A stretch of 64,000 nt of DNA, taken from positions 124,001-188,000 of the forward strand of contig NZ_FODY01000001.1 of NCBI RefSeq assembly GCF_900110485.1, given 5' to 3'. Shown here one piece after another: positions 47,354-56,407 of this stretch (position 1 is the stretch's first letter; each line of letters opens with the position of its first letter). Position numbers and translations under genes: made by a program. The notes under the pieces are model-generated. The model did not search any database. It was not told where the DNA came from and saw only the letters and a list, made by a program, of their open reading frames with translations. This DNA is from Propionispora vibrioides (lineage in GTDB: Bacteria > Bacillota > Negativicutes > Propionisporales > Propionisporaceae).

Positions 47354-47521
47354 CCCTAGTGTAGTGACACGTTGACATTCAGCTAAAGGACGCCGGATAA
47401 ATTTCCATCTGCAAGGCGAAGGAGTGAGGCGTAGTGGTTCCTACGCCGATTGACGACAACGAAGCAGCTGGAAATGTAGACAAGTAATTTAGCGAAATGT
47501 GAATGGGCCACTACACTAGGG
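47354..47521. mobile_element. 168-bp palindromic element with perfect 13-bp terminal inverted repeats (MITE-like)
   Basis: The ends read CCCTAGTGTAGTG (47354-47366) and CACTACACTAGGG (47509-47521), perfect inverted repeats. The inner arms also match each other: ACATT..GCTAAA and ATTTCCA.CTGC on both, around a central GCGTAG/CTACGC hairpin. No gene product is encoded, and no clear target duplication is seen. It lies in the gap between miaB and trxA. Confidence 0.7.
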
Positions 47522-47545
47522 CTCTGCCAACTTTGAAACTGAAAG
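47516..47545 (+). repeat. Partial copy of the inverted-repeat end found in rnpB
   Basis: The stretch CTAGGGCTCTGCCAACT followed by TTGAAACT matches 49262-49286 in rnpB at 21 of 25 bases. It overlaps the right end of the 168-bp element by 6 bp. The rest of this gap, to the trxA terminator, shows no further match. Confidence 0.55.
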
Positions 47546-48882: not shown

Positions 48883-48932
48883 CATGGCCGTTGTACGATA
48901 AGCTGCATGCAGCTTATCGTACAACGGCCATG
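48883..48932. terminator. 50-bp perfect palindrome between nitroreductase and rnpB
   Basis: Two 25-base arms meet at a GCATGC centre with no loop and no mismatch. On the minus strand TTATTGTTATTT follows, so it probably terminates rnpB and may also stop the + strand gene. Confidence 0.7.
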
Positions 48933-48937
48933 AGCAT

Positions 48938-49386
48938 TATGAGTCATCAATAAGCCGAGTTCTGTTCCGCTAGCGCGGTGACGATTATTTATCTAGGCTG
49001 CCAGTTGCCTGACAGCTCAAGCGACGCAACCCGGAAGGCTCAGCGGGCAGCTTCATCCCTTCCCTATTCGGTCTTGCTCCAAGTGGGGTTTACCTAGCCA
49101 ATCAGTCACCTGATTGCTGGTGCGCTCTTACCGCACCGTTCCATCCTTACCTGGCAAATACCAGGCGGTCTACATTTCTGTGGCACTTTCCCTGAGGTCA
49201 CCCTCGCTGGACGTTATCCAGCACCCTGCCCTACGGAGCTCGGACTTTCCTCAAATACGCCCTAGTGCTCCACCAACTCTGAAACTACAATTTCTTCACA
49301 GATCTTTTTCCGTAAATTTAATTTGCAGTTTTAAAATTGGCGGAACACTAGCGCATTCGCAATCGTCTTTTTGACTCATAACAACC
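48938..49386 (-). ncRNA. rnpB: RNase P RNA (type A), with an expanded P3 arm
   Basis: Catalytic RNA that trims the 5' ends of pre-tRNA. P1 is ATGAGTCA (plus-strand 49372-49379) with TGACTCAT (48939-48946). The conserved core is present in order: GAGGAAAGTCCGAGCTCC, GGGCAGGGTGC, GGTGCGGTAAGAGCGCACC, GGTAAACCCC and CAGAACTCGGCTTAT. The P1-to-P1 length is about 440 nt, some 90 nt more than the usual type A RNA. The surplus is one insertion in P3 (49262-49351). Confidence 0.95.
49262..49351. repeat. 90-bp inverted-repeat insertion in the P3 arm of rnpB
   Basis: Ends CTAGTGCTCCACCAA and TTGGCGGAACACTAG can pair over 15 bp (two G-U). An inner segment AAACTGCAAAT/ATTGTAGTTT also pairs. It lies exactly where P3 should be and would extend it into a long hairpin. 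Left end matches 47516-47540 at 21 of 25 positions. Confidence 0.7.
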
Positions 49387-49394
49387 GGATTATT

Positions 49395-49423
49395 ATGTTA
49401 CCAGTTATTTTTGTTTATGTCAA
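49395..49423 (-). promoter_or_regulatory. Sigma-A promoter of rnpB
   Basis: Perfect -35 TTGACA (plus-strand 49418-49423), 17 bp, TAACAT (49395-49400). Start would fall about 8 nt before P1. It lies 4 nt beyond the nif3 stop. Confidence 0.85.
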
Positions 49424-55187: not shown

Positions 55188-55411
55188 ATGTTTGCTAACT
55201 ATCCGGAACGGTCCTTGACGGCACTGTTTTCACTATGGAACGTTAGTTTACAAAATGCGTCCTGGTCATCTGTTTACTATAAAATCATAATGACTTCATA
55301 GTCCTTTTCCCGCAATGCGTCGTTGCCGTCGGTTTACCTATGTCTGATAGGCGCACCGCCGTCGCCTCAAAATCCCCCGAATTCTTTTACGCTTTCAAAG
55401 CAGGCGGACTA
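55188..55411. repeat. Degenerate repeat region downstream of dgt
   Basis: The left part (AACTATCCGGAACGGTCC, TTGACGGCACTG) matches the arm of the element at 28994-29030 in sequence and order. The centre holds an imperfect 55-bp hairpin at about 55314-55368. CGTTAGT occurs at about 55243 and inverted at the dgt stop. It looks like one or two decayed elements. Confidence 0.45.
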
Positions 55412-56407
55412 CTAACGAATTTGCCAGTTGGCTGGAATAAATAATTCCTCAAACAAATGAATAGCGTATACGTCGGTTAATCCGGCAATATAGTCAGTAA
55501 CGGTTGTCTCCAAACCCCAGCGATCCCGTCGCTGCAAATATTCATCCGGTAATGCGGACGGTTTAGCAACAAAGTACTCATATAATTTCTGGATCACATA
55601 ACGGGCTTTTTTACGGTCCGGTTCCAACTCAGCCGAATGATATATCTTCTCAAACATAAACTCGCGTAATTCATTCATAGCCGCTTCAATAGCCGGCGAC
55701 AGGCGGATTTCTGTCAAATCGGCAGAAGCCTCAAGCATATCGGCAACCATAACAGTAATCATATCGGATGGATGTGTCCCCAGACATTTTTCCACCCGAG
55801 CCGGAAGATCTGTCTTTTTAATCATTCCAGCCCGGATGCCGTCATCATAATCGTGACAGAGATAGGCAATGCGATCTCCCTTCCGGACGATACTTCCCTC
55901 CAAGGTAAACGGCTTATTCTCACCGGTATGATTGAGAATTCCATCTTTTACCGCCGCCGTTAAATTCAAACCTTTTCCATTCTTCTCCAGATACTCTACT
56001 ACCCGCAAACTTTGTTCATTATGATTATAATGTCCGATCAGATCTCTTAACGCATATTCACCGGCATGACCAAACGGCGTATGCCCTACATCATGACCTA
56101 AAGCAATAGCCTCGATTAAATCTTCATTAAGGCGCAGCCCACGGGCGATGGTCCTTGAAATTTGGGAAACCTCCAAACTATGGGTCATACGCATACGATA
56201 GTGATCGCCCGGCGAAAAATACACCTGGGTCTTATGTTTTAGGCGCCGAAACGCCTTGCTGTGTATAATCCTGTCACGATCACGTTGAAATGCCGTGCGA
56301 AACGGGCATGGCTCTTCTTCTCTTTGCCGCACAGCCGTTTTACTTTTGCTGGCCGCCACTGCCAAGTAGATATACTCCTGTTCTTCTATCCGTTCACGTA
56401 TATTCAT
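55412..56407 (-). CDS. dgt: Deoxyguanosinetriphosphate triphosphohydrolase-like HD protein
   Basis: About 331 residues. The HD metal site is built from FRRLKHKTQVY, MTHSLEV, and ALGHDVGHTPFGHAGE (about 106-121). This is the type 2-like short family common in Firmicutes; activity on dNTPs is expected but the substrate may differ. The frame runs to 56476, but MNIRERIEEQEY at 56407 is preceded by GAGGAGG and is the accepted start. It is divergent from the lptA-like gene. Confidence 0.93.
   Translation of the reverse strand: MNIRERIEEQEYIYLAVAASKSKTAVRQREEEPCPFRTAFQRDRDRIIHSKAFRRLKHKTQVYFSPGDHYRMRMTHSLEVSQISRTIARGLRLNEDLIEAIALGHDVGHTPFGHAGEYALRDLIGHYNHNEQSLRVVEYLEKNGKGLNLTAAVKDGILNHTGENKPFTLEGSIVRKGDRIAYLCHDYDDGIRAGMIKKTDLPARVEKCLGTHPSDMITVMVADMLEASADLTEIRLSPAIEAAMNELREFMFEKIYHSAELEPDRKKARYVIQKLYEYFVAKPSALPDEYLQRRDRWGLETTVTDYIAGLTDVYAIHLFEELFIPANWQIR

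Follow-up and report, generated by a model that had tools for sequence, protein, structure and literature searches.

A dispersed palindromic element at the tip of the P3 helix of a class A RNase P RNA gene in Propionispora vibrioides

The window analysed here, a 64,000-nucleotide stretch of the Propionispora vibrioides genome (contig NZ_FODY01000001.1, positions 124,001 to 188,000), carries on its minus strand a class A RNase P RNA gene (rnpB) with a 90-bp block in its P3 helix. The gene and its immediate surroundings comprise the following features:

49395..49423, minus strand: promoter-like site of rnpB, TTGACA-17-TAACAT (consensus scan, 10/12)
48937..49381, minus strand: class A RNase P RNA gene (rnpB), from P1 to P1 with the insert, ends approximate (RF00010; P1 strands ATGAGTC/GACTCAT)
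49352..49360, minus strand: 5' strand of the original P3 stem, RNA GCGAAUGCG (9-bp fold of the joined empty site; short P3 in relatives)
49262..49351, minus strand: 90-bp copy of a dispersed palindromic element in the P3 loop, with CTAG at each end (genome copies, family alignment, fold)
49252..49261, minus strand: 3' strand of the original P3 stem, RNA GGCGUAUUUG, adjoining the conserved GAGGAAAGUC (same basis as the 5' strand)
48883..48932, minus strand: perfect 25+25 bp inverted repeat 3' of rnpB, terminator-like (inverted-repeat search)

The RF00010 covariance model matched the gene with 266 bits over 48936-49298 (gathering score 100), spanning model positions 1-367 and thus its full length, its 5' part misaligned owing to the insert. 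Measured from P1 to P1, the RNA has a length of about 445 nt, or 355 nt once the block is subtracted, in agreement with a preliminary description made from the sequence alone, which had read here a complete rnpB, placed the 90-bp block at 49262-49351 in P3 and expected about 350 nt after its removal. Besides RNase P RNA and tRNAs, no Rfam entry was detected in the region around rnpB. The terminator-like repeat is, over its 50 bp, a perfect palindrome that separates rnpB from a nitroreductase-like gene; a relative of the same genus (G002) also has this palindrome, with one difference.

The block sits between the two P3 strands and, ends included, folds on the RNA strand into a single long hairpin extending P3, the surrounding 110-nt stretch reaching -54.4 kcal/mol (z = -10.5), a value matched by none of 200 shuffled sequences. 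The outer arm of this 90-nt hairpin consists of 19 unbroken pairs, while several bulges and G-U pairs occur in the hairpin, which is nonetheless the best paired among the 90-bp copies of the element examined. The ends, initially described as 15 bp long and able to pair, do pair, but this understated a palindrome that runs throughout the block. Joining the empty P3 site with a single CTAG kept gives a predicted hairpin of 9 bp whose tip is formed by CTAG, and the insert folds in the model as a continuation of P3, in line with the earlier proposal that the palindrome would lengthen P3 and leave the fold intact.

Comparing the block and its short flanks with the 4.43-Mb genome (BLAST), a search already suggested in the preliminary description, produced 54 matches, the best other copies sharing 92% and 85% identity across the full 90 bp. 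Allowing up to 3 mismatches, the terminal repeat occurs 120 times in the genome, against a single match for the reversed control pattern. The block is thus a repeat and not natural P3 variation, as that description had claimed, and the match it had reported between 21 of the 25 bases at the left end and positions 47516-47540 was recovered, 47517 being among the genome-wide terminal-repeat matches. The stretches around 32 places define a family of ~166 bp, with ends CTAGTGCTCCRCCAACTYTGAAA (end sequence CTAGTGCTCCRCCAACT), terminal inverted repeats visible in alignment and folds, and a conserved centre CGTAAGGCTTCGTTGTCGTCGG...CCTTGCCTTACG. Shorter forms of ~90 and ~50 bp, including the rnpB copy, are without the centre, and the 166-bp form is commoner than the 90-bp one; the block is consequently a shortened copy of a ~166-bp element. 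Many scattered copies with defined ends make the family MITE-like, and 12 of 60 genomes of the class (this one included) hold related elements, recognised mostly by their centre.

Selection on the hairpin at the RNA level was considered for the family and set aside. The consensus folds to -91.6 kcal/mol on the rnpB strand and to -63.4 kcal/mol on the other, but copy-specific changes give G-U (65) only slightly more often than A-C (49); the strand difference is therefore assigned to the ancestral element and carries no information on a role in rnpB.

Three further features of this kind lie in the window:

47354..47521, no strand assigned: related palindromic element with different ends, CTAGTGTAGTG..CACTACACTAG (inverted repeat; short matches to the consensus centre; CTAG common with 47516..47544)
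47516..47544, plus strand: terminal repeat of another, decayed element copy, 86% to the element end (terminal-repeat match at G000:C1:171517)
55276..55414, plus strand: another element copy, 70% identity to the consensus (terminal repeat at G000:C1:179393)

At 47354-47544, two distinct palindromic elements with short centre matches in common join at a common CTAG, a pair which suggests that CTAG-flanked palindromes form a modular superfamily. Elsewhere in the genome (locus L052, 308-406), a 90-bp element is bounded by flanks that in G002 (L121) hold a longer related element, apparently inverted. Only one clean element-free site was found, the others being ambiguous: at the site of copy L059, G002 is without the element and has a single CTAG. 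This fits an insertion at CTAG with a 4-bp duplication, although CTAG may instead belong to the palindromic end, and target duplication is thus a tentative reading. Among the end matches listed genome-wide, no insertion sequence with matching ends and no transposase linked to the family was found. A linkage to RAYT transposases was likewise unconvincing: the genome has two Y1_Tnp genes, with a partial element copy ~1 kb from one and no convincing copy at the other.

The history of the insertion was read from three relatives, two of the same genus (G001 and G002) and one of the same family (G003). G002 holds a full 166-bp copy of the element at the same P3 site, whereas G001 and G003 have an ordinary short P3 without the block, the finding in relatives that the preliminary description had named as support; the other class A genes readable among the fetched loci likewise have a short P3. 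Since the inserts of P. vibrioides (G000) and G002 share both the site and copy-specific variants, they derive from one insertion event, and this distribution places the insertion after the split from G001 and before that between G000 and G002. The 166-bp form being commoner, we infer that the G000 copy lost its centre, leaving 90 bp, with the deletion perhaps running between short CGG matches where the inner hairpin begins to pair; alternatively, the same form could have arisen by gene conversion, with a different 90-bp copy as donor. The centre of the insert is completely different between the two species. Their insert arms differ at 1 of 76 positions, compared with 17 of 330 for two shared intergenic copies, and with so few sites we claim no difference between these values.

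The RNA itself looks functional, given its conserved core and its changes in paired strands. Between G000 and G002 the rnpB core is identical at 323 of 327 positions (98.8%, four differences), while the 3' flank differs by ~10% (~90% identity). Among 236 columns invariant in seven relatives, G000 is changed at 2 and the other members at 1-19. Both changed columns of G000 lie, in the alignment, in helices whose partner strand has changed too, namely P2, where GACGAUU with AAUCGUC replaces GAUGAUC with GAUCAUC, and a hairpin close to the 3' end. These patterns point to an RNA that has remained under selection while carrying the insert. From the conservation of the core, the hairpin is probably kept in the mature RNA, and the insertion appears to be tolerated, presumably without strong effect on RNase P RNA function.

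We consider it very probable that a mobile palindrome of ~166 bp was inserted at the tip of P3, was later shortened in this genome, and lengthened P3 with the core unchanged. A non-coding palindromic element with the family ends would have entered a CTAG at the tip of the P3 hairpin of class A rnpB in the common ancestor of G000 and G002. As an end-to-end inverted repeat, its transcript would fold back on itself and only prolong the P3 helix, so that P1, P2, P4 and the catalytic core would be unchanged; subsequent loss of the centre in G000 would have left the present 90 bp.

The same genome also encodes a complete class B RNase P RNA, outside the window (G000:C3:220884-221252; loci L143 and L044; RF00011, 212 bits), and the class B loci of relatives are L130-L146. 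Class B matches above the cut-off were obtained in 17 of the 60 genomes, this one included. Class A is present as well in 16 of them, and the one genome without a class A match is an assembly that is 87% complete (G021). A single rnpA match was obtained in every one of the 17. Many relatives have the class B gene embedded in an array of tRNA genes, frequently immediately 5' of tRNA-Arg(ACG); in P. vibrioides no tRNA was found within 1.5 kb on either side of it. Between G000 and G002 the class B gene is 97% identical, about equal to its flanks. A literature search, outside which most subscription journals lay, returned no report of a genome that carries both RNase P RNA classes, A and B.

Other fates of the insert have to be weighed against a retained, tolerated hairpin. 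Long double helices are the type of substrate taken by RNase III, and the insert is such a helix, with its 19 unbroken pairs here and 63 pairs in the fold of the 166-nt copy of G002. The hairpin could then be cut from the transcript, leaving two RNA pieces held together by P2 and the remainder of P3, although the bulges and G-U pairs of the 90-nt form speak against such cutting and no bacterial RNase P RNA split in two in this manner is known to us. Cutting of this type has been proposed for NEMIS repeat RNA in Neisseria (PMC2229807), a parallel that keeps excision conceivable, if unlikely. A lineage in which a two-piece class A RNase P RNA, with its insert cut, works beside class B with one RnpA for both seems rather improbable. 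The presence of the complete class B RNA could also have made class A rnpB dispensable, the insert then being part of its decay; against this, the class A core is conserved with compensated changes and many relatives retain both RNAs without such an insert, and we regard this reading as highly improbable.

The insert could conversely have been recruited for a function, for instance in contact with RnpA or in RNA stability. Its near-identical arms in the two species and its superior pairing among the 90-bp copies are compatible with this, as are crystal structures that place the RNase P protein close to the P3 stem-loop (PMC2858038); yet the shared intergenic copies are not clearly more divergent than the arms and the centre is wholly different between the species, which leaves recruitment very doubtful. 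Natural lengthening of P3 without any mobile repeat has a precedent in the same class, in genus g57 (L151, G114; L169, G113), whose P3 of 78-126 nt folds as a hairpin, differs between its two species and is single-copy in both. Length alone is therefore no proof of insertion, and P3 can grow by other routes; at this locus, however, the dozens of copies of the block elsewhere in the genome, with defined ends, refute such an origin, whose probability is close to nil. Two pattern scans of 380 genomes for other P3 inserts in the class retrieved only this gene and genus g57, but these scans were not exhaustive, their gap ranges being too short for the G002 insert and their P2 motif liable to miss genes. 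The preferred reading thus remains a mobile palindrome inserted in P3 and shortened in P. vibrioides.

With a full copy, a shortened copy and no copy among relatives of the same genus, this locus constitutes a natural experiment on the tolerance of RNase P RNA to insertion, which also bears on why self-complementary elements survive in structured RNAs. The occurrence of the two RNase P RNA classes side by side in one genome raises a separate question.

Several known systems share part of these traits. The intervening sequences of 23S rRNA are likewise palindromic inserts that occupy the tip of a variable helix in an essential RNA, but they are removed by RNase III, whereas for the P3 insert excision is a candidate reading. 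Like the Correia/NEMIS, RUP and ERIC repeats, the element is short, non-coding and present in many copies, with terminal inverted repeats, TA near its ends and a transcript forming a hairpin (PMC2229807); it differs from these bacterial MITEs in that the end matches listed revealed no insertion sequence sharing its ends, in being a palindrome from end to end and in the weak support for target duplication. High copy number, palindromic structure and the presence of two Y1_Tnp genes recall REP elements, which RAYT transposases mobilise (PMC2817692), yet the element measures 90-166 bp against 20-40 bp for REP, and a partial copy lies ~1 kb from only one of these genes. The closest likeness is to the Rickettsia palindromic elements (RPE) present in M1 RNA (RNase P RNA) and tmRNA genes (Ogata et al. 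2002, via PMC2229807), dispersed palindromic repeats of 100-170 bp forming a long stem-loop and apparently tolerated inside the RNase P RNA gene. From RPE as described there, the present element is set apart by another bacterial class, its ends CTAGTGCTCCRCC, its position at the tip of P3 and its full and shortened forms in sister species. It therefore represents a further case, beyond Rickettsia, of a mobile palindrome within an essential ribozyme, of a kind already known but new in its lineage, its element family, its position at the P3 tip and the in-place size difference between sister species.
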